Below, piece by piece: positions 26,000 through 61,490 of a stretch of DNA of 64,000 nucleotides. Made by a program: the position numbers and the translations under genes. The number at the start of each line of letters is the position of its first letter. Position 1 is the first letter of the stretch. A model generated the notes under the pieces. The model saw only the letters and a list, made by a program, of their open reading frames with translations, was not told the DNA's origin and made no database searches. The stretch is from Calycina herbarum (lineage: Eukaryota; Ascomycota; Leotiomycetes; Helotiales; Pezizellaceae), in NCBI GenBank assembly GCA_001414485.1, contig LLEY01000061.1, positions 278,457-342,456 of the forward strand, given 5' to 3'.

Positions 26000-28900
26000 T
26001 ATTAGAGGGAGACCTTATCTTTACATCGTAATATATTATACGAATAGCTATATAGAATAGGTTCTAAGTCTTAGGATAGTAGTAATTAAAAGACTATTTA
26101 TATACGCGAAGTTAACTATAGTTAACTTCCTATAGTTAACTTCACTCTATAGTAATAAGTTATACTTCTAACTAGAACCACTTTTTAGATTATAAAGAGA
26201 GGCTTTATAGATTCGTAGTACTAGAGTAGTATCTTAAATATTATTTATTATAAAAAGAATCTTTATTAAACTTTGGTTATATTCTATAGTATTAGAATAT
26301 ATTATACTAGAAAATTAAGAAGTTAAAGATTATTAGCTTTTAACTAACTATAGAAAGGTAGGTCTATTACGTTTTATTCTTGTTTTAATTAGCTAGATCC
26401 GTTCTTTCTACTCTAACTCTTATTCGAGAGAGACCTTATCTTTATATTATAATATAAATATAACTTATAAAGCTCTTATTTAGAGAATAACTACTAGACT
26501 TACTAGAAACTATTTTAAGCCTCGATACTAGTTAAGAGTCTATTTATATTACTTTTCTTAATTATTAAGATATAATTAAACTCTTAAATTTATATTTCTT
26601 AACTAGATATAAAGAGAAGAATATATAGAATACTTTCTAGACTATAAGTATAGATAATAAGAAATACCTTAGAGAAATATTTACTAAATTTAAAAGTTAT
26701 TTTTTAAGTATAGTAATACTTAGAGAAATACTAGATTTAAAATAATTCTACTATATATAGAAGAAGATTATACTATAGTTATAAAATATAGCTACTTTAA
26801 ATAAAAGGCGATAAAACTATAACTTTACTAAAATAGTAGTAGATCTTTTAGCTCTAGATAAGAAATAATACTAAAATACTAAACTATATTTAGCTAGTAT
26901 AATTAAGCTAGTAGTTATTTTAGTAAAAAAGACTACGACTTTCTAACTCTTATCTAGTACTAATCTAAAACCTTATATACTTATATAGAGACCTTTCTCT
27001 ACTATTTAAACTACTTCTTAGATATTTAGACCTACTCTAACTAGCGAACGTTAAAAGACTACTAAATATATAGTCCTAGCTAGTTTAGTATATTATTAAT
27101 ATAGAAAGCTAGGATATTTTAAACTTAACTACTCTTAGCTACTATATATTAAAAAAATTAACTAAGAAGTAGACGAAGATAAACTATAAGCTCTTAATAA
27201 GTACTTCGATTCTAAATTATATTAGAGAGAAAATAAAGTAGCCTAGATAAAGACTTCTTCTTAGGCTTATATAAATATAATCTATTAAATCTTAATCTTT
27301 CTAGACTTATAAGAGGAAACTAATTCCTTATAAATATAACTCTTAGTATATATAGATATAGAATTAAGTTATAAGCTTTAATAGATATAAGAGTAAATAG
27401 ATTCCTATTTTTAAATTAACTTTTAGTCTTATAACTATCTTAATTATTAAGGTTATAGATCTAAAAACTACTTTACTTAGTATCTATCTATAGATATAAT
27501 AGTAGTATTAAGAGTAAAATAACCTAGTTTATATAACTATATCTAAATCTAAATAGACGTTATATTTATAACTATTCTTTTATAGTCTTAGACTTAGAAT
27601 AATAAGATTTAATTATTAATAATAAATAGTTAAAATACTTTAATATTCTTCTTAACTTTACTAAGAATTAACTTATTTAGCTAACTAAAACTCTTCTAAC
27701 TCCTTGTTATAGAAAGAAGATCTTACTTTTTTTAAATTCTAGTTAGATCTAGAAACCTAATTTAAATATATAATTAGATATAAATTAAAAGGATTATATA
27801 CTCTACTAAGATAAAAAATAATATAAAAATAGTAAACTCTTAGCTAAGTTATTACTATCTACGATTTTAACTCTTAACGTTCTCGCTTCTAACCTTAGTA
27901 TAAAGCCTCTCTATACTACTAGTATAGCCTAGATAGACTAGACTCTATACTTATTTATCTACGAAATAAATATAAATACTTTATATTTTAATATAAAGCG
28001 ACCTAATACTAAGTTCTTTATTACTAGTATTTATAAATTAGACTATATACTTAATAAGAAATTAGTACTATCTATAGATAATAAGAAGACTTATAATCTA
28101 ATATAGTCTTACCTCTCTAAACATTATTCCTTATTCTAGAATATATTCTTAAAGATAGCCTTAGATTAACTTCCTTCTTATTAAGAATATAACTATAAAA
28201 TTACTTTAAATAAACTACTTCTAACTTTCTACTCCTTATTATATTAATAGTTAACTATAGAGCTATAGGCTATAAAAGAGTATCTTATAGATAATTTAGT
28301 AAAAGGATTTATTATTAATAGTAATAGTTATTTTATCTCTCTAGTACTCTTTGTTAAAAAGTTAAATAGTAATAACCTATAGTTCTATATTAACTATTAG
28401 AAACTTAATACTCTTACTTAGAATAACTCTTACTTAATTCCTTATATCGACGAACTTCTTTTAAGACTTAGAATAGCTATAATCTTTACTAAGTTAGATA
28501 TATAATAAGCTTTCTACTATATCTAAATAAATTCTAACTTAGAAAAGATAACTATATTTAGAACTAGATATAGTATATATAAGTATAAAGTCCTTCCTTT
28601 TAAACTCTATAATAGACCTACTATCTACTAATATTATATAAATAATATTCTAATTAACTATTTAAATGACTTCTATATTACCTACTTAGATAATATACTA
28701 ATTTATTTAAATAATATTAAAGAATATAAGAAATAAGTTAAGAAGGTTTTAAGTTAGCTCTAGAGAGTTAGACTTTAAGTAGATATTAAGAAGAGTAAAT
28801 TTAGTATTACTAGAGTTAAATATCTAAGATATATATTAACTATATAAAGACTTAAAGTAGACTCTAAGAAAGTAGAACCTCTATAAAACTAGGTTTAACC

Positions 28901-31397
28901 TAGTATTATAATAGGTATAAAATCTTACCTAGGCTTTTATAGATTCTATTAATAATTTATTAAGAACTTTAATAAAATCGTAAAACACTTAACTACTATA
29001 ATACGTCTCTTAGAGCTGTTTTAGTAGATACTTAAATATAAGAAAGTCTTTAAAAAGCTATAAACCTAGCTACTTTTAGTTTAAGCTTTATATTACTTTA
29101 ACCTAGAACTTTCTATAAAGGTAGAAATAGATTCTTCTAATAGAGTAATAGTAGATATACTTTCTTAATAATATAGTAACTAATAATACCTAGTAGTATT
29201 TTATTCCTACGTACTAGTTAGATATAAGATAAACTAGGAAATCTATAATAAAGAATTATTTACTATTATCGAAGTATTTAAGAAATAGTAATCTAAACTT
29301 ATATTATACTAGTACTATATTAATATATTTTTAGACTACTAATCTCTAGAATACTTTATAATAACTAAGCTACTTATATCTAAGTAATTATAATAAATAG
29401 AATTCTTATCTAATTTTAATTTTTAGATATAATTTATCTCTAGAAAGAATAATTAAAAGGTAGATATATTATTCTAATATAAATATAATATTAAAATATA
29501 GAACTAAGTTAAACTAGATAGTTATTTATATATACTTTTAAAACCTATAAAGTTAGATCTTTAGATTAATATAGATCTAGCTTAAACCTTTATTTAAAAA
29601 TAAGCTATATCTATTAGTATAATTTAGCTAGATATTATCTCTAAAACTAACTTAGAATTACTTTAAAAGCTAAGAGAAGATAATTTATAATCTTTTTAAG
29701 AAGAGTGTAGAAAACTAAAGAATAACTATACTTTCTCTTTAGTTAAATTACTCTTATATAGAGGATAGCTTTATATCTAAAGGAATATAACTCTTTATAT
29801 AGACCTAATTTAAGAAGTATATAACTAAGTCTCTAGTGCTTACCTAAGCGTTTATAAAACCTACTAGTTATTAGTACTAGCTTATTATTAGATTAGAATA
29901 GGTTTAGATTATAAGATATATATAGCTAACTACTAAGTATATAAATACTCTTATTCTTAATAGATTAAATAATAAGGATTCCTTCACCTACTACTAGTAC
30001 TTAACTATCTAATATAATACTTATATATAGACTTTAAGTCCTTTTTAAAAGATAAGTATAGATATAATACTATACTAGTATTTATTAATAAACTTAGAAA
30101 GGATTTAGTTTTAATACTCTACTATTCTACGACTAACGCTAAAGGACTAGCTTAGTTCTTTATATAGTAGATCTACTGTTTTAGATACTATTTTAAATCT
30201 ATTATATTTAATAGAGGACTTTAATTCGTCTTAGCTTTTTAGATAGAATTCTATTATATAATTAGTATTAAACTTAAGCTATCTATAGCCTACTATAAGT
30301 AAACTAATAGTTAGATAGAGATTATAGACTAATATATTAATTAGAGACTAAAGCCTTTTATAACCTATTATTAAAATAGATAAGATTAAGAGAAAAGCTT
30401 AGTCTCTGTCGATAGTTACTACTAGAGACGTAGAAATCAGAAGAAAGCTTTAATATTATTATTACTAGAGAAAAGATAGAAAGAGAGTATAATAGAGGTT
30501 TCTTATAAATTAGTTAGTACTAATAATATAAAGCTCTCTACTACTTATTTTATACTTAACTCTAGTACTTTAACTAAAGCTTTTATTAATTCTAATTATA
30601 TATAATAAAATAACTTTACTCTTAAATCTTTAGTAAAGCCTTATCGCTTTTATATAGCTAATAGATCGTCTTTATTAATTAGTAACCTTATCTATTTTAT
30701 TACTCTTAACCTATATATAAGCTAGTATATTAACTACTAGTAATACTTTTATATTACTAAGCTTAGCTCTTATAAGATTATACTTAGAAAGCTCTAGCTT
30801 ATAAAATATAATCTTTTAGTTAACTAGAGAAAGAATACTTTATAGTTTAATTAAAGCTATAAGTATTATATAAAGAAGAACAAAGTGCTTATCTATAGTT
30901 ATACTAAAGCTATTAAAAGCACTTTAAAGATAATTAATATAGCTATATTCTATACTTATACTAAGTAATAAGATATAGAAGTATTCTCTCTATTACTATA
31001 TAAAATCGACTAGAGACTAAGAGAGCTTACTAGTTAGTAATATCTTAACCTACTAGTACTAACTAAGTACTAAATAGATAATAGTTATAAGTGTATAAAA
31101 AAGAAACTCTATTTTAAAAGAGAAGTAGTATACTAGTAGTCTTAATATTACTAGAAAGCAGCTAAGCTATATCTTTAAGAGGCCTTACTTAGCGATATTT
31201 AGAAAAGCTTTAAAAAATATAATAACCTAAGAACTATTAATCTAGCCTTTTTACTATCTTAGTAGTACTATTAGCATCTTCTGCTTTTCTAGTTATAAGT
31301 AGTAGATAAGTTACTCTCTTACTAGAACTATAATCTCTATATTAAATTAAAACTAGAAATAAGAGTATCTTATAGCTTATTATATAATATATCTATC
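26000..31397 (+). mobile_element. RIP-destroyed Ty3/Gypsy retrotransposon, plus strand
   Basis: Extremely AT-rich, nearly free of CA and TG. Despite many stops, plus-strand pol can be read: a zinc-knuckle remnant near 27,100 (GYFKLNYS for GHFKRDCP), reverse transcriptase about 28,200-29,000 (FTKLDI, YITYLDNILIY, IKKSKFSITRVKYLRYI), RNase H about 29,100-29,450 (YNKELFTIIE) and an integrase-like part about 29,700-30,600. The ends are approximate; I could not find intact LTRs belonging to it. About 25,999-26,036 and 26,420-26,455 share a GAGACCTTATCTTTA repeat, and 26,108-26,150 is a GTTAAC-type palindromic repeat, both perhaps from the 5' end. Confidence 0.75.
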
Positions 31398-31781
31398 TGT
31401 AACGAAACTTAAACGAACTAAACAAAGATAACTAAGTCTCGAAGGTTAGTATACAGGTAAGAAGTATAAATACACCGGGTTGTTCACTTAGAAGTAAACT
31501 CGTTACTTATATCAAAGATATTAAATAAGTTAATAAGATTAATAACTAAAGTTAAGCACGAAGCTCCTATCTAATAGCAGACGTGCTAGTCTTATATAGG
31601 ACTGTAGTCCTCCGTTCTAATCGCTCTAGTCGCTTGCTCTAATCGCTTTAGTCGACAGGCGACTTAAGCGACTTAGGCGACTAGGTTACGTAATGTCCCT
31701 TACTAAAAGAAATCCATAGATCGCTTAGCTAGTCTAATAATCCCTCTTCTATAAGAGTTTCCGATAATGCTTAACCTATTA
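31398..31781 (-). mobile_element. LTR (antisense), same family as 54,619-55,008
   Basis: The reverse complement matches the LTR at 54,619-55,008 along its whole length with RIP-type differences. Read on the plus strand it starts TGTAACGAAAC; the sense end that reads TGACAGG in the other copy is mutated here to TAATAGG. The sense strand has a CTATATAAGACTAG promoter-like stretch and a run of CGCCTAAGT repeats. No matching 5-bp target duplication flanks it, and the sequence on its left does not resemble the internal sequence that follows the other copy, so it is a solo or rearranged LTR. Confidence 0.8.
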
Positions 31782-32530
31782 GAGCACTGCCTAGTCTTTA
31801 CTTATTATATACTTATATATAATTCGTAATACTATCCTCTTCTTAGCCTAGCATATCTCTACGCTTAAGTATAACCTAAGAAATACCGTCAGAAGGCTAG
31901 CAGCCTTCTCTTACTATAATGTTTTTAATAACACTATCTATAAAAGATAAACTAAAACAAAATCGTATTAATAACGCCTTCTATATCGATTAAGTAGGAT
32001 CTGAAATATCCTCTTATACTCGCTATCTTACCTCTATATCCAGCTATTGATATATATCTATTACTAGGGGTAAGAAATGTTCTAAGTATACTAGGAAGAG
32101 TAAAACTTATAATATCGAGGAGTAAAATCGAATACCTTTAACTTTTAAGTAGGAATCTCTTAACACGTAGAAACGTCGTCTACGGGTCGAGGAAGAGACG
32201 GCTTATTAGACCTAAGAAAAGGCCTTTCGAGCCTAGTAGAAAGCAATATTAAAGGTTCTCTGTCTTCGAGCATAGCAACGTCTTCTTAACGAGCGAGAAT
32301 AACAGATGCTTCGTCGTAGACTTAGTACCTTTTAGGAGCTAGATAAGGCTAAGAAGAAGGAGGAAAAAGAAAAAGAAGAGAAGGAAAGAAGAGAGGAGGC
32401 CGCTAAGCTAGCCGCCTACTCTACCCCTACTACTTCCAACCCTGCTTTCGACCTAGGTCTCGATCCTAGTTTCCTCGAGGTCTTCTTTATTAATCACCTA
32501 ATATAGACAACCCTAGGTTTTAATAATAGA
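31782..32530 (+). pseudogene. Transposase-like C-terminal fragment
   Basis: A less mutated stretch reads LKVLCLRAQQRLLNEREQQM and a long KKKEEKEKEEKERREE acidic/basic coil, then NPAFDLGLDPSFLEVFF. This arrangement resembles the C-terminal tails of fungal Fot1/pogo-type DDE transposases. The upstream half carries stops. No terminal inverted repeats were found, so the assignment is tentative. Confidence 0.4.
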
Positions 32531-35500
32531 AGTTCTAAAGTTCTTTTAAGTACTAGTTAATGTTTTTTCTAAGTTCTTAAGTGTTTTTTAAATATAGGTA
32601 ATCTAACTATTTAATTAAATACTTAATCTTACCTCTAATAATCTTATAGTTAAGAATCCTTTTAACTTTATATTCAGTATTTAAATTAACTAGTTGAATT
32701 TCTATAAATAGAGCTAGTAGTGCTCCTAGTAGTGCTAGTTTAAGTAGAGATATATAGAATACTAGGTAGATATTTATTATCTTTAATAGTACTAATTTAT
32801 AATTTAAAGGTCTTTTAACTTGTTTAATTTTAAATAGTCTAAGTTTTTTATAATCTAGTTTATTACTTAGTCTTTTTATATTAATATTTTTCTATACTAA
32901 GTAGACTTTATCCCCCTCTTTTAGTATTAGCTTCTAACTACGTCGTTTATTATAGTAGTATACGTTTCTTTCTATAATAAACTATAAATCTTCTATAAGT
33001 TCCTTATATAACCTCTTAATTTTTAAGACCTAAATACAAGTAAGCTAGTTGTCGATAGTCGTAGATAGTAGTTCTTAGTATACTAATAATTTATATCTAA
33101 AGTTAGTATAGAATAGTATAACAAGTGTTATTTCTATTACTAAACTATTATAAGTAAACTATACTAAGGGCAGTAGTTCTACCTAGTTGTTCTACTAGTA
33201 GTTTATATAATAACAAAGGTATATTTTAACTACTTAATTTATCTATTTATTTCCTCTACTTATTTAAGAGTAAAAAGCTATTAAAAGCTTTCTTTTTATA
33301 CTTAATCGTTTTATAAGAGTAATCTAAAATTTCAAGGTAAAGAGCTTGTCTCTATCTAAGAGTATCTCTTTAAATAGCCTATATCTTAAGACTATTTCTC
33401 TAAGAAATGCGAATACTAATTCCTTAGCTATACTTAACTTTATATATACTACTAAAATTATATATTTCGTAAGTTGTTCTATAATAACTAGGATCGAGTT
33501 ATACTTAACTTCTATTATTAGATTTTTAGATTTAGGTAATTTAATAATAAAATCTATAGATATTAATTTCTAAGGTATTTATAGTATTAGAGTAGTGTTT
33601 ATCTGTTTATAAGGAGTATAGTAGGAAGCCTTATTCCTAGTATAGGTATTATATTCTGTTATTACTTCCTTAACTATCGTAGATAACTAATTAATATAAT
33701 AGTATTATCTTATTCTTTAGAGTGTTCTACGAATTCCTTAGTAGCCGTAAGTAGGCGTAGTATAGTATTCTTATATAAATTCCTTTATATATAAGCTAGG
33801 GACCTATAATTTTCCTTTTATATACTAGTTATAACCTTTATATATATTCTGAATTTTATCTATCTAAATATTATTTATTACTATAATTTCGTATATAGTA
33901 GGTACTAAGTCTCTATTCTTAAGAGTTTTTACGATTATAATCTTCTTATACTCTTTATTTCCCTTATATTCGAGTTTCTAGTTAAGAGTATTAGCTTAAG
34001 TATTTAACATTCCCTTTATATATCGAATAATAATATTAAATCCTTCTAATATCTCTAACTATCTAGCTAATTATCTAGTCGTAAGTTCCTTAGTTGTTAT
34101 AAATGTCTTAAGATTCTTATAGTCGGATAGGACTATAACTAGGTGTTTTACTAGCTATAGATAGATTCTCTAGTATTCTAAAGCTAATACTATAATAAGT
34201 AACTCTTTATCGAATATACTATAGTTTTATTATACTAGGTTAAATATTTTAGAATAATATATAATAGATATAAGTTTTCCCTTTTTATTTAGTTATAAGT
34301 AAATCATATTTATTAATATATCTAAGGCGTCTATTTCGATTATACTTAGTTTTTCTATATTAAAGTTATATAGAATAGGTTTTTCTATAAACCTTACTTT
34401 AATCTTTTAAAAAGCGTCTTTAGCTTGTTTATTCTAAATAAATTTAATAGCTTTCTTAACTAGTATTATTATTAGTTTAGTAATCTTTATATAGTCTTAT
34501 ATAAATAGATAGTAAAAATTTATAAATCTAAGAAAGGATTATATATCTTTTATATTCTCTAGTAATTTCTAGTTTAAGATGTCTTAGATCTTTACTAAAT
34601 CTATTTCTATTTTCTCTAAGCTAAATACCTATTCTAAGAAAAGTATCTAAGTTACTCTAAACTTATATTTCGAGAGTTTTAACTAAGAGTTTACTTTTAT
34701 AAGTTATTATAAAACTTCTCTAATATATCCCTTATATTCTTCTTCTTTTTTTAAGAAGATTAAGATATTATCTAAGTAATAAATTACTATTACTCTTAAA
34801 AGATCTCTTAAAATATTATTATTTTATCTCTAATATATAACTAGTATATTATAAAGTCTAAATAGTATAACTATATATTTATAAAAGCTCGATAGTAAAG
34901 TAAATACTATCTTCTATTCGTCTCTGGTTTTTATTTATATAAGTCTATAGACGTTTTATTAATCTAATTTCGTAAATCGTACTACCTTACCTAACTTATC
35001 TTATAAGTATTAGCTAGGTAGTAGTAGATAAGCGTTCTTAACTATAGTATAATTTACTTCTTAATAATTAATATATACTCTTTTATTAAAGTCGTCTTTC
35101 TTCTTAATAATAAGTATATTTAAGGTAATTAGTAACTTAGATCTTCTAATATATCCCTTCTTAATACCTTCTTTTATATAACTCTCTATTCTCTATAGGC
35201 TTTTCTAGTTATATAACCGAAGCTTCTACTTTAAGAGGTAATAACTCTCTTTTAATTTAATCTTATAATCCTATAAGTAATGTTCTAGCAAGGCTCGTAA
35301 GTTTTCCAGGTTTTCGAACAAAGCTCTAAATTCTCTATACTATATAGGTATTTCGTTATCAGCTTTCTTACTAACCTATAAAGGACCCTAGGCAAGGTGT
35401 CCTAGTACTTTAGAAGAGGTAGTACTAACCTTGTTCTAGCTTTAAAGTTATAAATATAAACCCTTATAGTTATACTAACTAAAGGTTATTATTCTAGCTT

Positions 35501-36190
35501 TCTAGTTAATCTCTACATTATATTCTTAAATTTATAGTATACTAAGTATTACTTCCTTACTCTGTATTCTAATAATATTAAATTATATATCTAAATAGTA
35601 TCCTTTAATATTAGTTTTAGTTAGAATAGTTTATTAATTTATAATTCCCTCTTAGTATACTATATCTATATTATTAACTATTCCTAATTAGTATAGTTAT
35701 ATTTAGTTAATTTAGATATTTAGCTTTTTTAGAGCTATTAGAGAAAGGAAGTTACCTATTACTTCTAAATTAATTAAGACTCGAAGTTTCTTTCTCTATA
35801 TTTTAGTAGTTACTATAAACTACTCGTTTCTTATTATAGTACTAATCTTATTTCTTAAGTATTAGACTTTAAAAGACTATGTTTCTTAGTTTTCTCGACG
35901 CCTTTCTTCTTACTTATACTATAGAAAGAATCTAATTCTTTTCTTATTTGCTTTTATAACTCTATATATTATTTAATATTTTATAATACCTACTAGTTTA
36001 GACATTTCTCTTATAAACTACTTAGGCAAGAGTATACTCTCTTAGTATTAGGTCTATATATAGCTGTTTTCTCTAATAGTCTTAGTAGACTATAATTCTT
36101 CTTTATAAAGATATCTCTCTATAGGTTTAGGTATACTAATGTCTTATTCTCTTTTATTAAAAAGAATAGTAAATAGTTTAAGTAGAATGT
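32531..36190 (-). mobile_element. RIP-destroyed Ty3/Gypsy retrotransposon, minus strand
   Basis: Minus-strand reading between about 34,900 and 35,200 gives a reverse transcriptase with KEGYI-like, VPKKDGRLR-like and GKVVRFTKLD words, partly broken by stops. Integrase-like sequence follows at lower coordinates (about 33,000-34,000), as expected for gag-pol order on the minus strand. The AT-rich composition ends abruptly at about 36,190, where normal sequence returns. Short open frames inside it (such as 33,346-33,573) are chance. Confidence 0.7.
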
Positions 36191-36600
36191 TGGATTCTAC
36201 TAACAGGGCTGCTTGTTGTAATAAAGAAGTGGGATTTACTGAGCATGTTTTTTTTTCCTTTCAACGCCTGCGTTCTTGGATTTTTGATTCTTTGAAGTAA
36301 AAGGAGAATAATTTGGTTACAAAGAATTCAATATTGGATATAAATGTTGGCTCCGACTCTAGGTTGGATTGAAACGAGCTCCTAGATGTGAGTATTGTAG
36401 GAAACAAACTTGCGAGTTGAAAATTGAAGAAAGAACACGTTCGTGCTGTTGTTCACTCTTTCTTGATCAGATGGATATAAAAATGCGCGAATCAGGTTGT
36501 ACTCCCCCCCGATGTATTCTCACCATTATCAATAACATACTTCCATATTTCCCTTGAAAAACAATTACCACTTCAAAATATACAATCTCCCCATCTCAAG

Positions 36601-36981
36601 ATGCCACAACTCGGACTTCTTACTGCCACAGACCGCCAAAGATACAAGAACGAACTCGAAAGCCTCGCAAGAAATATCGCTCCCGAAGATGCATGGCCCC
36701 TCAGTGCCACATCTTGGAGGCAAATCACCTGGGTGCAAGTTAGGACCGAATTATGTATCATTATAGAATCGCAGCTCTCCGACGACCAAAATGTACCCGA
36801 AAACCAACAGTGGTTGATTAAGAATAATGTTAGAGAGTACTTGGAGGCCAATGTAGCGCACGAAGACCAGATGCAACCCTTATTGACCAACAAGGCAGGC
36901 GATGATAGACATGCAAAATTTAGAGTTAGGTTAATTTCTGGTCATTTTGACCAAGATCGTGAAGAGCTTGTTCTAACCTAG
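36601..36981 (+). CDS. Small hypothetical protein beside the transposon block
   Basis: A 126-residue intronless frame starting MPQLGLLTATDRQRYKNELE, with a preceding pyrimidine-rich, TATA-like leader and normal base composition. It is mostly helical and charged, with Trp residues in a DAWPLSATSWRQITWVQVRTE segment; no signal peptide or membrane segment. I do not recognise a family. It stands alone between a 12-kb RIP block ending 400 bp upstream and repeat-rich DNA downstream, and carries no RIP-type stop, which suggests that it is functional or recently arrived. Confidence 0.55.
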   Translation: MPQLGLLTATDRQRYKNELESLARNIAPEDAWPLSATSWRQITWVQVRTELCIIIESQLSDDQNVPENQQWLIKNNVREYLEANVAHEDQMQPLLTNKAGDDRHAKFRVRLISGHFDQDREELVLT

Positions 36982-38796: not shown

Positions 38797-40333
38797 TTAT
38801 GTAACTTTAAATCTCGGGCTCATTCTAATCCTTTCTCCGAAACGATGTAAAACAACAAGGACTGGTAAAAAGACAAGAAAAACAAATGCTAGTACCGAGT
38901 TTCCCCAACCCAATCCCAAACTCCTGTACAACGGAGGGCCACAAAGGGGGAATAATGCTCCAAAGAGAGCAGAGAATGTGTTGCTCGCTGCTATAGCTGA
39001 AGCTGCGTATAGATCAAAAACATCAACCAAGTAATTTTGAGCAGGGAGCATAGTTAAAACCATGCTGAAGCCAACAGCGCCAGTTCCAATGATTGGTAAA
39101 ATCCATGCCAAGCTAAAGTATGCTGTCCATCCATACATAAGAATGCCAATGACGATAGAAACGGCGCCTAAAATCAGGTGCGGTAGTCGATCCTCTGGTT
39201 TGGTTTCCCCTCCCCGTTTTTGACGCATATATTTTACGTATCTGTCCGAGGTAAGAGCAAAGAACAGCATACCGATGAAGTTGCCAATACTTCGCCCAAA
39301 AAACAAGAGACCAGTTTGGCCTTCCGAAAAACCATATTTCGATTGCATGATCCCCGCCAAAGTTGTGAGAATCAAATACGACAGGCCATACACCAAAGCG
39401 TTATAGAACGACAGGATGAAAACAATCGGTGAGCTGAAAAGTAGGATTATTGGTCGGGTGACTGATCGAAGAAAGGACTCTTGATCCCAATGAGCTTGGT
39501 ATTTAGATCTGAGTGCTTCGTTTCCGGTTTCCGCTCGAAGCCTAAGCGCCTTTCGCTCCAGGAGAACGGGTTTGTAGGTTTCCTTGAAAAGTAACGCTGA
39601 GAGAAGTGTCATGAGCCCGGCAAATATAACAACGAACCAGATTGACCAGCGCCAGCCAAATTTCTCCGCCAAATAACCTCCAATAACAGGCCCCGCGAAT
39701 GGACCAATTTGTGGAATTGCAACTGCTATTGCCATTGACCTGCCACGCTCTTCTGACGGAAAGCAATCACCTACAATGCTCGGTCCAAGGGTCATCGAGG
39801 TTGTGGTAAGGCCTGTGAGAAATCGAAATGCGACCAGCATCGAAATATTCGAGCTGACGGCAGACGCTACCGAAAAAACCACGAAAAGAACATTTCCGAT
39901 GTGGTAGACTGGAAGCCTTCCATACTTCTCGGATAAAGGCCCTACAACAAATGGTCCAACAACCTCCCCCAGCTCCCAGATGGAAACAAGGATGGTTGCA
40001 TAGCTATCTTCCGACACTTGGAAATCTTGCAGTGTCTGCGATACGGCCGGTATAATTATTACGGTCCCGAAATTGCTGGTGCGAGTGGTCAGTATTCATT
40101 TCTCGTGTCACAGGAATCGAAACTTACCCAAGCATAAACATGGAGGCAACCAGTAACTGAATTGTCAATTTTCGCCAGTAGGGCCAATTGTTGGGGTTTT
40201 CGGGATCGCATCCATCGAAATCCACGATATTTTGGACATCCTCTATGGGTGTTTCCAGCTTTAATGGTTGCGATTTCCCTACTTTCGCTTCCATCGCTTC
40301 TTCCACGGCAGGGTCGGTTTTGAGCTCGGACAT
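38797..40333 (-). CDS. MFS drug/metabolite exporter (DHA1-like), two exons
   Basis: Exons 40128-40333 and 38797-40075, joined across a GTAAGT...ACCAG intron, give 494 residues. An acidic cytosolic N-terminus with DPENPNNWPYWRK, typical of fungal DHA1-type multidrug transporters, is followed by 12 predicted membrane spans. MFS motif A is present as GPLSEKYGRLP, and a charged central loop (ETYKPVLLERKALRLRAE) separates the two halves. The family exports drugs, toxins and secondary metabolites by proton antiport at the plasma membrane. It lies 492 bp downstream of the repeat precursor gene on the same strand, so product export or self-protection for that pathway is the simplest reading. The N-terminal extension open to 40,426 is not needed. 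Confidence 0.9.
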
Positions 40334-40825
40334 AATAAAAGTGTTGTTTTTCGCAGGTTCGCATTCACAACTTCGAGTCTTCTTATGAAGCAGAGTATGG
40401 GCGGAATAATCGAGAATCAAACACAAGCGTTGGTTTGGGGATCAACATATATAGGGAATAGAAATGGTGGCTGCTTTAAGGCTCAAGCCAACAAAAGCTT
40501 CAGGGGTGTCGGCTAAATGCAGTTTCACATGGGTCATCTTTTTTGCAGGTGGATTTGGCATCACAGAGAACTGTAAGACAACATAATCTTATAGATATTG
40601 CAAAGTATCAGAGGCTATCTTTAGAATCACATCAAGGCACCCTCTCGTATCAACTTCATCAAACAACCTCGATCAGACCCCATGTAGCAAAAGTCCCAGT
40701 CTCATTTCCCAGCAAACCTCACAGTAGATTATTCCAAGGGTTCGACTGGATGGAGTACTGAACTTCAGTTAGCATTGTTATCTCATTGCAATGATAACGA
40801 AAGAACCCGACTCACCTTGTCGTAT

Positions 40826-41221
40826 TTATTTGTCCAAGTCCTCGTCTGCAGACAAAGGAGCTCTCTTTCCCAAGTCTTCATCGGCACGTTTTCCCAAGTC
40901 TTCATCAGCTCTCTTTCCCAAATCCTCATCAGCACGTTTGCCTAAATCTTCATCCGCTCGCTTGCCAAGATCCTCATCCGCTCGTTTCCCCAAGTCTTCA
41001 TCAGCGATGAAGCTACCACGTTTCCCTAGATCCTCATCAGCGACAAAGCGCTTGCCGAGGTCTTCGTCGGCTCGTTTTCCTAGGTCTTCATCAAACGGAA
41101 GGTTGTCTCGAATGTCATAGACGGCTAGTTTGGCCAAATCGTTGTCTGATGGAAGTGTACTGGCCAGAGGAGCCGCGGCCACAAGAACAGGGAGGAGAAC
41201 GAGAATTGAACGGAATTGCAT
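40826..41221 (-). CDS. Kex2-processed repeat precursor (dikaritin-like RiPP precursor)
   Basis: A 131-residue protein. I chose the ATG at 41221 rather than an in-frame one at 41275 because MQFRSILVLLPVLVAAAPLA is then a clean signal peptide. A short leader follows, then nine DEDLGKR units between residues 44 and 120, each ending in the Kex2 dibasic site Lys-Arg, and a final APLSADEDLDK without the cleavage site. Six units are exactly ADEDLGKR; others carry short N-terminal extensions (LPF, FVA, GSFIA). Secreted precursors with repeated, KR-separated cores next to a UstYa gene are the mark of dikaritin RiPPs (ustiloxin, phomopsin, asperipin type). After Kex2 and carboxypeptidase trimming the main product would be ADEDLG. 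A repeat-derived signalling peptide is the alternative. The gene is divergent from the UstYa gene (775 bp apart) and precedes the MFS gene. Confidence 0.9.
   Translation of the reverse strand: MQFRSILVLLPVLVAAAPLASTLPSDNDLAKLAVYDIRDNLPFDEDLGKRADEDLGKRFVADEDLGKRGSFIADEDLGKRADEDLGKRADEDLGKRADEDLGKRADEDLGKRADEDLGKRAPLSADEDLDK
40862..41071 (-). repeat. 24-bp coding minisatellite encoding ADEDLGKR
   Basis: Residues 51-120 of the precursor. The DNA units diverge at many third positions, but the encoded octapeptide stays identical in six of them; the two longer units carry in-frame insertions of 2 and 4 codons before ADEDLGKR. Confidence 0.9.
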
Positions 41222-41996
41222 TTTAACTGAAGAATTGCGAGGATATTGTTTGTTCAAATGATATATTTTGTTCAAGGGTAAGAATGGTAAAGTTCCCGAA
41301 GATAGCGAGCTTAGCGGAGATTGGACTGACTTTATATACCTCGTTGCACTCCTCTGTGACTACACTGTACGGAAATATGCAAAGGCTTGAACTACACCAA
41401 AGCAGTTATAACGGCAACGCATTGGCAACTGCGAAGATGGATACGCGATTCTTTTTTCGCGCTACCGATCACTTCGGTGGCGAAGTCGCCTGACTGTAAG
41501 ACAATCTAGGCAGGAAGTGCGTTATCACATCGCATACATGCTTGTCTTGATAAAAAACGGACGTGAGACTTGACAAATATAGATGTAATTGGTGCGAGTA
41601 CCCCAAGAAGTGTGGTTCGTACTACCCCTCAGTTGCTGATCGCTACAAAAGGCACGCAACAAGAACCGAAACCGACCGGGTCTCTTCATGCAAGACAATT
41701 CACAAGGCAGGTAAGAGTCGGTGAGCTGTTTTGATATTTTGACAAATACAAAATATGCAGCTGCAAAGTGACAACAGCTGCAGTACAAGGTGTTGAGTTT
41801 TCCAGACAGGGTGCTTGAAAACCAAAGCATGAATTCGGACCAGGACATCTGATATCTTGTGACGACTGATTGCAAAAGCCGCTACGCGGAGTCTCCCATA
41901 ATTTGTTTAAATATCAAATTCCGCTGAAACCCCTCCCTCATTCATTCATTTCACCCTCCCTCTCAGTTCTAAAATCATCATTCAAGCAATTTCAGC
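41222..41996. promoter_or_regulatory. Divergent intergenic promoter region of the RiPP genes
   Basis: The 775 bp between the precursor (minus) and the UstYa gene (plus) must hold both promoters. The UstYa side has a CT-rich leader (CCCTCCCTCATTCATTC...) directly upstream of the ATG. I could not define a shared operator. Confidence 0.5.
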
Positions 41997-42950
41997 ATGT
42001 TTTGGAAACGGGTTGAATCTTTTACCTCCGGCTCCCGCAATAGTTACGACTCTTTACTTGCTTCCGAAGACCAAAGCATCGACGAAAAGAATTACGAGAT
42101 TTTGAAAAAACAATCCCGATCTTCGTTGCCTTTTTACCTATTCCACCTTCTTCTCTTGGCTCTTTACACTGGGATCTTCCTCGCATCATGGGCAAAGCTA
42201 CCTGTTCAAAAAAATTGCCATGATGACTTCATATTTTCGCCTGTTAGAGAAGTGATCTCCTGGAAGCTGAGACCGATGGACAACAACGATAACGTAAAGA
42301 GTCAATATACCGGCTTTCCAACCTCAGAAATTGACGCTGCTTGGGGAAAACTGCTTAAGAACTCCAATATCAGAATTTCGGAAGAGACCATAAACAAGAT
42401 GAATAGGTCCACAATCAAGCTTCAGGATGGGTCAGGAATGTATGGAGCTGGACTTCAAGTACACCACCATATTCATTGCCTCGTAAGTATTCCACATCAC
42501 AAATGTAGCCAGATGGTACAACCCACTAATTTGCTTCTCATCTAGAAAAGCGTTAGACAGATGATATATCGTGATTACTACGGCATACCAGACGAGCCAG
42601 CTCAGTGGACGCATCTAGATCATTGTATCAACGACATCCGACAAGCACTTATGTGTAATGCCGACATCTCGCTTCTTACCTGGGACTGGTTGCCCAATTA
42701 CCGACGTCCGTGGGCCAACTTCAACATCGACGGCGAGTGTGTTGACTGGGAGAAGCTAGATTCATGGGCTGGAGAGAACGCATTTTCTCTCTTTGATCAA
42801 AAGTCAGTCGTCCACCCCGAGTTGGGCCTCTCTTACCCCTTGGGTCCGGATGGTCAGCCGGATACGAATCCTAGAATTCGTCCTACTGCAGAGGATCTAG
42901 CTGCACTTAAACAAAGCACGAATCCCAAGGGGAACTGGGGGCCAGCGTAG
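41997..42950 (+). CDS. UstYa-family (DUF3328) oxidase-like protein, two exons
   Basis: Exons 41997-42482 and 42546-42950 (GTAAGT...CATCTAG) give 296 residues. A cytosolic N-terminus of about 40 residues precedes one membrane anchor (LPFYLFHLLLLALYTGIFLA). The luminal part carries both family motifs: HHIHC (H157, H160, C161), cut immediately afterwards by the intron, and HLDHC (H185, H188, C189). These HxxHC pairs are the proposed metal-binding active site of UstYa proteins, which oxidatively cyclise or otherwise modify ribosomal peptides of the dikaritin class; related enzymes act in other fungal pathways. The expected YRxYYG-type segment between the motifs is present (YRDYYG). Adjacent to a Kex2-repeat precursor, it is the likely maturation enzyme. 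Known clusters often have two or more UstY genes; only this one is seen here. Confidence 0.93.
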
Positions 42951-52150: not shown

Positions 52151-52724
52151 TTGGAGAAATAGTTTCTTGCTCGCTGAAGGCAATTGTCTTAGGTAGTGGA
52201 AAGCTTTCCAAAAGATGCTGGATATGGAGAATTTTACTTTGATCATAGTGTGCTGCCGTGCCGAGTTTTTGTCAACGCGATCACATCGATCGCTGGCTGC
52301 ACCCACGCTATTATATTAGTAAATCATAGATTAAAAAAATCCCGGCAGTGCATTCGTGCGATAGATGCCCGGTATCATGCCGTACCTTTGATTCCATTTG
52401 CAATTGATATAGAGGTCCATCCTTCGATTGTGCCTACCTAGACAGACTAGCTAGGTATGATTTTCTGTTGTGCGAGTCTTGCAACAGGCCCTGAAGCGGT
52501 AGTCCTCAAAGAAATCAATAAAGGTACACTGTGCCTAATTACACCAAGGCAAGATATAGCAAGATGATAGGATAGTATAGAGTTTCAAGTACGACGACAT
52601 CGAGATATGAAGAATATAGCGGCCTGAGGCCCACATAGTGAACCTGACGAAGGGGAAAGCTGTACCTCCAAAGACCTCTGTGCAACTCAAGTCGTCCTGT
52701 GGCAGACAAAAATGAAAGTCTCAG

Positions 52725-53345
52725 ATGTCTTCGGCGACCGGTGATCAGCAGCCGGTGAAGCTGTCTCTTCCCCTCGTATGGTTCCCCAAATCCATTGCGG
52801 CGAAAACTACTAACAGCACTAGAAATACCAACAAGAGCTATTCTAAGAACTCCGCTAGAAAGATGAACTTGTAGTAATCGCGCGCGGCCTCGGCCTTCTT
52901 CGACTTGTAACGAACCTCCTCCATTCCTACGATGTTGCTGGGAACAACCTGATACTGCTCGTTGGAGCAGACGACAGAGAAAATGGCTGGATTGGTGAGG
53001 CTCTGGCGGAACATGCTGCGATCAGCATGGCACCCAAGTGTCGTGGACTCAGCCTGGTCAATACCGATATGATGAGTGTTGGAACGAGGGAAAAAATGTA
53101 TGCGCATGGTGGAATATTCAGCATAACATCGAGAATCCTGGTGGTGGATCTTTTGACCAGCTTATTGAATCCGGAAACCATAACTGGACTGGTAGTTCTA
53201 CATGTAGACAAGATTGTGGCAACCTCTCTGGAAGCTTTCATTCTTCGGATATACCAGCAGAAGAATAAGGTTAGATTTTTAAAAGCCTTTTCTAATAACC
53301 TAGAACCTTTTACTCCGGGATTTGCCCCCTTATCTATAATAATGT
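52725..53345 (+). pseudogene. RIP-damaged duplicate of the 5' end of RAD1/XPF
   Basis: Translation with one intron (52,776-52,822, GTATGG...CACTAG) gives the start of the XPF/Rad1 structure-specific endonuclease of nucleotide-excision repair: MSSATGDQQPVKLSLPL, then YQQELF, a stop, ELR, a second stop, KDELVVIARGLGLLRLVTNLL, LILLVGADDRENGWIGEALA, NTDMMSVGTREKMY, GGIFSITSRILVVDLLT and KIVATSLEAFILRIYQQKNKV. Two stops (TAA at 52,844 and TAG at 52,856) stand where Gln codons fit, and Lys stands where Glu fits, all RIP-type changes. Similarity ends at about 53,345 (GFAPLS), so only the N-terminal quarter or less of the gene was copied. The kept intron shows a DNA-level duplication, not a retrocopy. 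A functional RAD1 is expected elsewhere. Confidence 0.8.
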
Positions 53346-54618
53346 GTTGTGCTGGATATATAATATCCCTGTTTTTTCTCGTCTTCTACTCTAATACTGC
53401 TTACTTATCATCATGCCACTTTCCTTACTCTACTTATTTCATGATCAGACCACTTAGTTATCAACACTCACTCCTTATATATAGCACTAGCTAGACTACC
53501 TACACAAATCAATCAATTCTCCATGGCCTTCAGTACTCAATACTCTCTCAACTCAATAACTATGTAGTTGTTTTTCGGCGGATCTGAGAAGACTTCCTAA
53601 TAAAGTAATCATGCTTAAGGCGATTACTGTAAGGGGAACCTTTTATAGTGAAAACAACGAGAAATCTTCTAGCTTGTAGGAAAGCGTATTGTTTTAAGAC
53701 GCCCACCCCATGCTAGCTTAACCAGTACTCCTCCAATCACTCTAGCCATCTCCTATGTTATCTACATCCTAGCTAGGCACCAACAGGTATAACCTGTATT
53801 GTAAGTCCTGCCAATCTCAAACTAAGGGTCCATTTACCAAATACGGTGATTGAGATTATTCCAGACCTTCTCTAAGCCTGCTTACTCTACCTTTTCCTTG
53901 TGTTGCCGCGTAATGAGCTAAACTGGCTCTCTCCTGCCCTAAGCAGTTGCTTCCCAAAAAGGCCCCCCCCCGCCGTATACTAACCTAGGGGTCGCGTCAC
54001 ACCTCTCCCTGGCAAGGAATCTTGTAAGATGTCTAAAGGATGCCAGACACATAGAGAATTTTGAATTTCAGCGAAGACATTGGAGAAGGATAGCGATACT
54101 AAGCCCAGCAATAGCGTCTTGACTTAATCGTAGGCGGACCTGGAGAAGGGGGGAAGCTTCGTTGTGGCTGTGGACGTGTCTTAGAGTGTCGGTGTGATTG
54201 AGATAAGCTAGATTAAGATATTTGTCAGTCAGTGTAAAGCAGATACCTGACAAGAACGCCAGCGATGGAGAACTAAGGGGCACTTACGGAGGGGCACCAC
54301 GTAATCGGAGGGCTGGCCCAGTAAGGGAAATTCGAGGATCAGGACGCGAATACGACTGTCTTGTGGAATGACAGTAAGGCCGAGATGGTCTCATGGCGAA
54401 GGTGGCATATAGCAGGCGCATTTGAAAGTTAGGAAGAGGAACAGATGTTGAGATAGGAAGCAGCACTGGATTTATACATGAGGTAGGGACTTGATTGGAG
54501 CTAGCAGGGGTGAGCAGGGGCCCTGGTAGCCATCGCAAAGCAGCAAGCGCGCTAGAGCAGCAGGGCCGTGTCACGAATCACGTGTGAACATGTGATGAGT
54601 GAAGACCAGGCGGCGCCC
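53346..54618. other. Intergenic region, no supported gene
   Basis: Minus-strand frames at 54,068-54,283 and 54,284-54,574 adjoin one another but have no recognisable domain. They may be a captured, decayed gene fragment next to the LTR or chance. Confidence 0.4.
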
Positions 54619-58900: not shown

Positions 58901-60157
58901 CTAAGTAAGCAGCTCGCTTACGTCTTTTTCGACGAGTGCTATGTCGCTGTTATAGACATATTATACTAAGCAAAGCTCCGCTAGCTATGGCAATTACAGT
59001 ACTTATAGTACTGGTTTATATGTCTTATAGCAACGCTTCTTACTACGCTTAAGCTAGTACTCCGGGCTAATCTACTGCTTACGTATGTATAGATCTACCA
59101 GCAGTCGACGACGCGGCTAACAATCCGGTACTAGGTGATCGAGTGCCAGCGGGACATCTAGGAGACGGCTGAGCCGCTGATCTAGCGACTGCCACTGCTA
59201 CCAGGGTCCCGAGGGGTTATCTACGTACGCAGCTACGCTTAGGGAGAGAGTGTGGCTGAGGAGATAGATTGTCTATTTTATAAGGCCACGGTAACTAGCA
59301 AGCAGGAGCTGCTCGAGCAGTGGGCTAGTAGCAGTGGCGGGTGGATCGTGGTAACCGGGGCGCTTAGGACGGGTATTAATATTCTAGGCGTGGTTTATAT
59401 CATCTATCTAGGCCAGCTATATAGGTTGACCAGCTTTATATAGTAGGTAGGACGAGGCGGGCGGGCTGGTGAGATCAGCGACTTAATTATCATTCTCTTA
59501 AGCAGTAGCAGTAGCAGCAGTAGTGGCCAGTTCCCTGCTCCCCGGCAAGAGCTGGTTAACGCGTACTTAGTTAAGGCAGAGGACAAGGCAGCGCTGATAG
59601 AGTATCTGAAGAGTAGCAGCTGTCGACGAGCGGTGCTAGCTAAGTATTTAGACGGCTATCTAGACGCGACCAGCTGTATTACAACGGACAGTATTTCGTA
59701 TAACCGATGTAATATATCACTAGAGCCACGGGAGGTGTAGAGCGAGACTGTCGAAGGTAGTAGCAGTGGCAGTAGTATTAAGAACAGGGCTGAAGCTATC
59801 CACCAAGCACTACGAGCTAAGGTATAGTAAGACGAGCAGCTAGAGCGATTCCACCAGGTGCTTCACAGCTACTGTATCTACTGCTAGCTAATGTAGGAAG
59901 AGGAGCAGAACCACTGCCACCAGGACTGTCCGTACACAGCAGAGAAGAGCTGTGATATAGCGGTATACCGGCAGTAGCGGTCGCGGCTTAAGCTGGCTAG
60001 ACGAGACCAGTGCTTCCGGTGTAGGCTGTCCTAGAGTATCTATACTTCTATTAAAGATCAGCAGCTATATGTATATCCGTATCTTATGCTCCTAGGGCTA
60101 TTCTTTCTACACTAGGTTAGGCAGCTGCTTCGGATCTGTTAAGAGGTTGGGTTTTAA
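55949..60157 (+). pseudogene. RIP-mutated RecQ/telomere-linked-type helicase gene
   Basis: From the ATG at 55,949 to the TAA at 60,155-60,157 is 1,403 codons in a single frame, interrupted only by RIP-type TAG/TAA codons. Domain order: zinc-finger-like N-terminus (FxCQDCVYKTTNRS near 56,240), RARY-x-VVD, a long Ser/Gln-rich middle, then helicase motifs: Walker A STGSGKSLLFF (about 58,656), DECY at 58,931-58,942 (DExH box), LIATLLTTL (motif III-like), GVIYVRSYA, TGALRTGINILGVVY and GRGGRAGEISDLII (motif VI). After these comes a Cys-rich C-terminal part. This is the RecQ-type helicase found in many fungal subtelomeres (telomere-linked helicases). It is dead here but was complete when inactivated. 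The first third is duplicated at 24,302-25,740. Confidence 0.8.
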
Positions 60158-60184
60158 GGAGGAGAGGAGTAGCAGTAGCAGTAG

Positions 60185-60958
60185 CTAACCGAGCTAGGGG
60201 AGGGGGTATTTAGACGTTGGGAGAGTAACTAGATACGGGTATAGCAGCGAGTAGGGGAGATCTACTATAAGATTAGGAGTTAGAGTAATTAAGTTATATT
60301 TAAGTTAGCTAGTATAATATATAAGTATTTATAACTACTACTACTACTATTATTATAGTCTAGACTAAGCTAACTATAATTCCCGATACTAGTATTAACT
60401 AAGAGTTAATAGGCTAGTATAGATCTAGCTAGCGATATTAAGAATAATATTTAAAGCTTTAAAGGTATCTTAAACTAGAGCTAGTAGGTTAATAGAAGTT
60501 TATAAAGTATAACGTAAGATAGCTAGATTAGGTATTTTATAAGTTATAAAGAGAGACGGCAGTGGCAGTAGCAGTGGCAGTAGCTAACCGAGCTAGGGGA
60601 GGGGGTATTTAGACGATAGAAGAGTAACTAGATACAGATATAGCAGCGAGTAGAGGAGATCTACTATAAGATTAGAAGTTAGAGTAATTAGGTTATATTT
60701 AAGTTAGCTAGTATAATATATAAGTATTTATAACTACTACTACTACTATTATTATAGTCTAGACTAAGGTAACTATAATTTCTAATACTAGTATTAACTA
60801 AGAGTTAATAAGCTAGTATAGATCTAGCTAGTAATATTAAGAATAATATTTAAAGCTTTAAAGGTATCTTAAACTAGAGCTAGTAGGTTAATAGAAGTTT
60901 ATAAAGTATAACGTAAGATAGCTAGGTTAGGTATTTTATAAGTTATAAAGAGAGGCGG
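60185..60958. repeat. 399-bp tandem duplication
   Basis: The sequence starting CTAACCGAGCTAGGGGAGGG at 60,185 starts again at 60,584. The two copies remain very similar throughout and differ mostly by C/T and G/A changes. AGCAGTAGCAG-type trinucleotide runs flank each copy. Confidence 0.85.
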
Positions 60959-61354
60959 CAGTAGTAGTAGCAGTAGCAGTAGCAGTAGCAGTTGTAGAAG
61001 TTATAGAAAGCTTAGTAAGAAGAAGATATAAATATAAAAAAGTATTTATTTCTAAGTTAAGCTAAGTAGGCAGATAAGCTAGCGCTTAGTTAGCTATATA
61101 ATTATATATATAAAGCTAGGTTTAGTAAGAGTAAAGATAACTAGTAATAGTAGAAGTCGTAGTAGTAGTAACTATATAGAGTATAATAGTAGTAGTAGTA
61201 ATAGTAGTAATAGAAATATAATATATTTATTTCTATAAAAAATAAAAATAAAATAAAAGTAGAAAGAGATTTAAAAGTAGAAGAGTTTATTTAACTATAA
61301 TATAATAATATAATAAAAGTAAGAGTTAAAAGTTATATAAAAATTAAAAGTAAC

Positions 61355-61490
61355 TTCTAACTAAATAAAGTATAAGAGTAACTACTAAAGTATAAGAATA
61401 ACTACTAACTAAATAAAGTATAAAAGTAATTACTAACTAAATAAAGTATAAGAATAACTATTAACTAAGTATAGTATAAAAGTAACTACT
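61355..61490. repeat. Short AT-rich tandem repeat
   Basis: About five diverged copies of a unit like ACTAACTAAATAAAGTATAA-GAGTAACT, 20-32 bp long. Confidence 0.65.

Follow-up and report, generated by a model that had tools for sequence, protein, structure and literature searches.

The locus and its repeat precursor

The window, a 64,000-nucleotide stretch of contig LLEY01000061.1 of Calycina herbarum (contig C338 in our numbering), carries three adjacent genes between positions 38797 and 42950: a transporter gene of the major facilitator superfamily (MFS), a gene for a repeat-containing precursor peptide and an oxidase gene of the UstYa (DUF3328) family. An earlier note on this DNA had proposed the trio as a candidate pathway for a ribosomally synthesized and post-translationally modified peptide (RiPP). 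All three genes are intact and lie at the positions given there. Their features suggest a pathway in which an acidic peptide, mostly devoid of aromatic residues, would be oxidized and exported.

The precursor gene lies on the minus strand at 40826..41221 (ATG at 41221, end of the stop codon at 40826) and encodes 131 residues in a single exon. Its N-terminus, MQFRSILVLLPVLVAAAPL, is hydrophobic and by eye signal-like, as are the N-termini of three related proteins described below (C206, C6 and P0012). A short pro-region follows, then nine stretches ending in KR and finally ADEDLDK-stop without KR. In order, the nine stretches are ...PFDEDLGKR, ADEDLGKR, FVADEDLGKR, GSFIADEDLGKR and five times ADEDLGKR. 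The array of FDEDLGKR and ADEDLGKR units, two of them with the preludes FV and GSFI, covers residues 43-120, corresponding to 40862..41095 on the minus strand when calculated from the residue numbers and the ATG at 41221. The count of nine KR-terminated repeats made in the earlier note was confirmed, and its signal peptide was seen by eye only. Several repeats separated by KR or RR, here nine KR-ending stretches, are the feature by which KEX2-processed repeat proteins (KEPs) are recognized. Plain ADEDLG makes up six of the nine units and has no Tyr, Phe or Trp. The other three (PFDEDLG, FVADEDLG and GSFIADEDLG) contain a Phe placed before DEDL, a point absent from the earlier note.

At the DNA level the eight ADEDLGKR units are only 76% identical on average. 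Across their 28 pairs 162 base differences were counted, and all 162 are synonymous; the variable codon positions are two of eight first, none of eight second and all eight third positions. When each unit was given its observed number of changes at random, none of 20000 simulated sets retained all eight peptides. Inclusion of the FDEDLGKR unit gave 196 synonymous and 20 non-synonymous differences. Because the differences among the ADEDLGKR units are all synonymous, ADEDLG, the aromatic-free peptide, is what selection retains, and this form has persisted since the origin of the array. The unit sequence had been noted as unlike known cores, and six unit sequences indeed gave no match in the literature text searched (5.39 million papers), supplementary tables lying outside that search. 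To our knowledge, the cores of victorin and the epichloecyclins differ from ADEDLG as well.

The UstYa gene (41997..42950, plus strand) is divergent from the precursor gene and separated from it by an intergenic region of 775 bp (41222..41996). It consists of two exons, 41997-42482 and 42546-42950, with an intron at 42483-42545, and encodes an intact protein of 296 residues that matches PF11807 with an E-value of 5.4e-48 and 164.2 bits (cut-off 25). The HxxHC(x)nHxxHC motif is present as HHIHC at residue 157 and HLDHC at residue 185, and one hydrophobic N-terminal segment was located by eye at about residues 45-67, in agreement with the membrane-anchored protein with two HxxHC motifs that had been described from the DNA. 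A profile search with PF11807 over the genome (68.8 Mb, 379 contigs) returned 71 exon-level matches, which we merged by eye into 51 places; the window gene ranked first and is the only UstYa gene within the 64 kb. Searching protein sequences with the UstYa protein gave ten proteins: the window protein itself, P0003-P0007 at 49-59% identity and four at 27-38%, with P0008 at 38%. In a tree of 12 rows the UstYa protein of C206 was joined firmly with P0004, and the place of the window protein was not resolved. A search of PDB chains gave no match at E <= 1.

The third gene (38797..40333, minus strand) starts with an ATG at 40333 and consists of exons 40333-40128 and 40075-38797, separated by a GT-AG intron at 40127-40076; its stop codon ends at 38797. 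The intact product of 494 residues matches MFS_1 (PF07690) with an E-value of 1.4e-46. This agrees with the exporter-type gene of the earlier note, export itself being predicted from the sequence.

Relatives of the three genes

Related stretches were detected at two further loci, C206 and C6, when the genome was searched with the precursor. A weak match at C212 (E 0.54) was not accepted as kinship. At C206 the repeat unit is ATDEDLAKYGKR, also written ATDEDLAKYG, and contains Tyr; the neighbouring UstYa protein is 58% identical to that of the window over 210 residues and its gene is divergent from the precursor gene. At C6 the start of the precursor is 60% identical over 57 residues, followed by no array and a single ADEDLG; the UstYa match covers residues 1-132 only, in two pieces of 71% and 73% identity. 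The C6 copy is degenerate. The head-to-head order is that of the window, with a spacing of about 0.6 kb at C206 and about 0.7 kb at C6. The precursor family and the UstYa subfamily are therefore found head-to-head at three of the three loci found in this genome, the degenerate one included; at the loci fetched, no other UstYa piece exceeds 41% identity. The earlier note had regarded a UstYa gene conserved elsewhere without the precursor as grounds for giving up the pathway; among the loci found, all three carry the precursor family.

In the C206 precursor (L020 6893-7516) two introns were inferred by eye. They sit at the Lys-Tyr codons of the repeat, where AAGTAT(GG) resembles a 5' splice site, and the repeats there may be turning into introns. 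About 1 kb downstream of the same precursor lies a frame for a GNAT acetyltransferase (L020 8450-8998); UstY clusters of lichens have been reported with GNAT genes (PMC12048977).

The association of precursor and UstYa gene bears on whether the peptide is modified at all. With an aromatic residue absent from six of nine units, the precursor could release plain acidic peptides with a role as signals, as pheromone-like molecules or at the surface, the UstYa enzyme being a leftover partner or acting on another substrate. In the survey of Umemura (2020) most KEPs (6120 of 7878) have no DUF3328 gene beside them (PMC7329392), and mushrooms have yielded linear, minimally modified KEP peptides (PMC9769878). 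However, the UstYa gene of the window is intact with both motifs, and its subfamily recurs beside the precursor family at every locus found. Pheromone-annotated KEPs, moreover, are nearly all without a DUF3328 neighbour, with three exceptions (PMC7329392). The precursor described here has such a neighbour; it gave no match to Pfam. We consider a linear product rather unlikely.

Beyond this genome, a protein search with both precursors found P0012, P0013 and P0014, from sources labelled ena and lgn. The units of P0012 are GTDEDLAKFGRR, with AKFG after the DEDL units; those of P0013 are AVDQDLAKYGKR and ETDEDLAKYGKR, and those of P0014 are SVDQDLAKYGKR and ATDEDLAKYGKR, so that DEDLAK(Y/F)G also occurs in three pieces outside the genome. 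P0001, the sole match of the first precursor search, lacks KR units and shows acidic words only here and there; it was rejected as a chance match. Across the family the unit can be summarized as x(T/V/A)D(E/Q)DLAK(Y/F)G-KR/RR, compared to ADEDL-G-KR without AKY in the window. Of the family units seen, all but the incomplete first stretch of P0013 contain D(E/Q)DL. The aromatic position is occupied by Tyr in C206, P0013 and P0014 and by Phe in P0012, and is absent in the window. This pattern argues that the pathway may need D-E-D-L rather than an aromatic residue, or else that the window product may need no ring through an aromatic side chain.

One could instead regard the Phe-bearing minority units as the real cores, closed through Phe as in victorin (PMC9233826), and the plain ADEDLG units as spacers or by-products. 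Three of the nine units contain Phe, and AKFG in the relative P0012 shows the same residue. Yet Phe stands before DEDL in the window and after DEDL in P0012, so that the two positions are not equivalent, and the plain units are exact at the peptide level. Cores defined by Phe seem improbable to us.

A repeat precursor beside a UstYa gene was also sought elsewhere in the genome, in 10-kb stretches surrounding 20 UstYa places, most of them high in the match list. The fixed test was an open frame with at least three repeats of a 4-mer and at least three [KR]R sites. Eight of the 20 loci were positive (L015, L019, L020, L021, L022, L025, L029 and L031), and in the 64 kb window only the precursor described above passed, giving nine repeat precursors in all. 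Triplet-shuffled loci (4,000,000 bases) contained no passing frame, a weak control since shuffling destroys any tandem repeat. A Gly/Arg-rich frame at L034 4224-4358 is not a KEP and was removed from the counts, and a minus-strand match in L022, which reads the array found there from the other strand, was not counted. The genome is rich in this type of UstYa/repeat-precursor pathway. Tyr is found in the units at six of the eight repeat loci (C250, C326, C206, C146, C329 and C180). At C212 (L022 3430-3837) the repeats DIESIR(K)R have no aromatic residue and lie about 2.3 kb from the UstYa match, which makes this locus a second aromatic-free candidate. C27 has the aromatic-free units ETADGELDTVGIA and EVADGELDTVGIA in addition to other units with Phe, and the repeats at C133, with ER/KR spacing, fell short of the fixed test. 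The window is not alone in having aromatic-free repeats beside UstYa.

Two further loci of this sample are of note. At C146 the repeats EKAAYAYAPxEKR (L021 7083-7562; C146:456082-456561) lie near UstYa and tyrosinase matches (C146:451784-452463), the tyrosinase match being about 1.5 kb from the UstYa match, and this Tyr-bearing locus looks like a more classical ustiloxin-type cluster. At C335 (L018 7019-7393) a repeat protein, GPTVDGTSTRGQWVTSYTNKGEA, without KR sites is found beside two UstYa matches; it may be a precursor that is processed by a different protease.

MFS transporters form a large family in this genome, with at least 96 exon-level matches (87 of 190 candidates scored) merged by eye to at least 59 places. 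Among the eight nearest relatives of the window transporter, ranked by best match, four (C44, C201, C27 and C133) have a UstYa match no more than 3.3 kb away, measured start to start; that at C44 is 58% identical to the window protein. None of the remaining 55 of the at least 59 places has a UstYa match within 8 kb. The UstYa places with 8 kb on either side take up about 0.94% of the genome, so that four of eight corresponds to P 5e-7; the cut at eight was set after the list had been seen, and over all 59 places four near UstYa gives P 0.0024. MFS, UstYa and repeats occur together at three loci, the window, C27 and C133. Repeats without Tyr are found at all three of these loci and at one of seven without the transporter (C212), C133 being the locus that fails the fixed test. 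We do not retain a link between this MFS subfamily and Tyr-free repeats, which was drawn post hoc from a small sample and only from loci with recognized repeats.

Surroundings and origin of the locus

Next to the trio lie frames of a fungal rhodopsin-domain gene at 43.7-44.7 kb and an amidase gene with a Pfam match at 46.9-47.3 kb and frames by eye at 46.5-48.6 kb. Frames at 49-51 kb are MFS-like by eye; a Pfam scan of two of them gave no match. Further out, the frames at 36.5 kb (36481-36978) and 52.9 kb (52704-53491) also flank the C6 copy, with identities of 69.8% over 126 residues and 95.9% over 73 residues, respectively. As these flanking frames are shared, the window and C6 have a duplicated block in common, which was probably copied from C6 to the window. 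Common to both are the precursor and the UstYa gene; the 6 kb fetched at C6 gave no match to the first MFS gene, the rhodopsin and amidase genes or the 50-51 kb frames. The frame at 52704-53491, from a gene that we take to be RAD1/XPF nuclease-like, is short in the window (211 residues), and its counterpart at C6 is an open frame of 928 residues. Contig C338 stops where the window stops, and the locus may therefore be subtelomeric.

These surroundings allow another reading, in which the pathway once contained Tyr and the window holds a copy of it in decay, possibly in a subtelomeric position. In addition to the contig end and the 211-residue frame set against 928 residues at C6, the degenerate state of the C6 copy and the absence from the window unit of the AKY found in its relatives would fit such a history. 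On the other hand, the frames of all three window genes are intact, and decay would not have left repeats whose differences are all synonymous, as they are here. We regard decay as very unlikely.

Low GC content (21-32%) was noted at 26000-36000 and 60000-64000 of the window, and no open reading frame of at least 110 residues is present from 23.8 to 36.5 kb. Beyond the first of these low-GC blocks, about 31 kb from the trio, an S41-type peptidase frame is found at 6223-7719. Ustiloxin-type clusters contain S41-type peptidases; this frame is probably unrelated to the trio. Near the contig end, 62558-63007 shows a weak OrsD match of 20.7 bits, below the cut-off of 26.6.

Proposed oxidation and comparison with known systems

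We propose, with a probability of roughly 0.55, that the trio makes an exported acidic peptide which is oxidized by the UstYa enzyme at a non-aromatic position. In this pathway the precursor would enter the secretory pathway, where a Kex2-type protease would cut after KR and a carboxypeptidase would trim off the KR, so that mainly ADEDLG and a few N-extended variants would be released. The membrane-anchored UstYa-family protein would act as an oxidase with a binuclear copper centre, turned towards the secretory lumen, and would attack a non-aromatic C-H bond within the conserved D-E-D-L, by hydroxylation or by forming a side-chain link. The MFS protein may help to export the product or may protect the cell from it.

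The chemistry is modelled on CctR, a DUF3328 protein described as copper-dependent, which attacks an aliphatic C-H bond by hydroxylating a 2-aminobutyrate residue at its beta-carbon (PMC12435403). The same work describes CctR as bound to a membrane, proposes that its catalytic part faces the organelle lumen and gives HxxHC(x)nHxxHC as its binuclear copper centre (PMC12435403). A lumenal oxidase would fit a precursor that passes the same compartment and is cut there by Kex2. Taken together, this chemistry and the lumenal placement lead us to favour a non-aromatic oxidation of ADEDLG followed by export. More tentatively, the modification may fall on a C-H bond of Leu, Asp or Glu in the aromatic-free ADEDLG, with D-E-D-L as the true substrate site throughout the family and ring closure through Tyr or Phe not being what the UstYa partners need.

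Several points weigh against the proposed oxidation. We found no earlier RiPP in which an aromatic-free core is oxidized, the UstYa-type RiPPs covered in PMC9233826 using aromatic residues. Phe is present in a third of the units, and in the tree the window UstYa is joined only weakly to its relatives. The fetched stretches of C44 and C201 contain MFS and UstYa matches but revealed no repeat precursor. Those of C206 and C6 are without a relative of the transporter, and the exporter is therefore not a fixed partner of the precursor family.

Such a combination of parts is not in itself rare, because KEPs with DUF3328 neighbours are common. Of the 7878 KEPs in the 2020 survey, 1758 are DUF3328-linked, and Tyr occurs in 65.6% of the repeats of these 1758 (PMC7329392). 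The locus resembles this group in its signal-like N-terminus, KR-ending repeats and adjoining UstYa/DUF3328 gene, and differs from the majority in having a main unit without Tyr, which places it in the remaining roughly one third. No KEP type with the window unit is named in the text of PMC7329392, its supplementary tables lying outside the search. From its sequence features, the locus would work like a pathway built on a KEP-UstYa pair.

With the dikaritins (ustiloxin, phomopsin and asperipin-2a) the locus has in common a repeat precursor beside a UstYa-family gene with two HxxHC motifs, and with asperipin-2a in particular a single UstY-type gene and a transporter (PMC12048977). In contrast, dikaritins are cross-linked through the Tyr side chain (PMC9233826), and an aromatic residue at the core is lacking in six of the nine units. 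Ustiloxins and phomopsins also need a tyrosinase (PMC7329392); the profile PF00264 gave 45 exon-level matches in the genome, none of them on contig C338. Tyrosinase may be absent from such clusters (PMC12048977), and those of the asperipin type also lack one. The earlier statement that the locus has exactly the parts of a dikaritin pathway does not hold in view of its aromatic-free main unit, its one UstYa gene and the contig without a tyrosinase match. Since its main unit has no aromatic residue for cross-linking, we do not classify the locus among the dikaritins. Victorin and the epichloecyclins are similar in having multi-core precursors, likely processed by Kex2, with cross-linked products (PMC9233826), but the cross-links run through Phe in victorin and Tyr in the epichloecyclins (PMC9233826), neither of which is found in the main unit here. 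CctR, the cyclochlorotine hydroxylase, shares the family and motif and acts on an aliphatic C-H bond, and the 2025 paper on it defines DUF3328 proteins as copper enzymes (PMC12435403).

The window thus adds a precursor family whose repeat stays constant under selection and whose sequence is absent from the literature text searched. The paralog at C206 has the same precursor family and a related UstYa gene placed head-to-head; it differs in its Tyr-containing unit, its two introns by eye and the lack of an MFS relative in the fetched stretch. The two loci form a natural pair within one genome, with related UstYa enzymes beside repeats that contain Tyr at C206 and lack it in the window, and setting one against the other would give a direct answer as to whether the aromatic residue is required.

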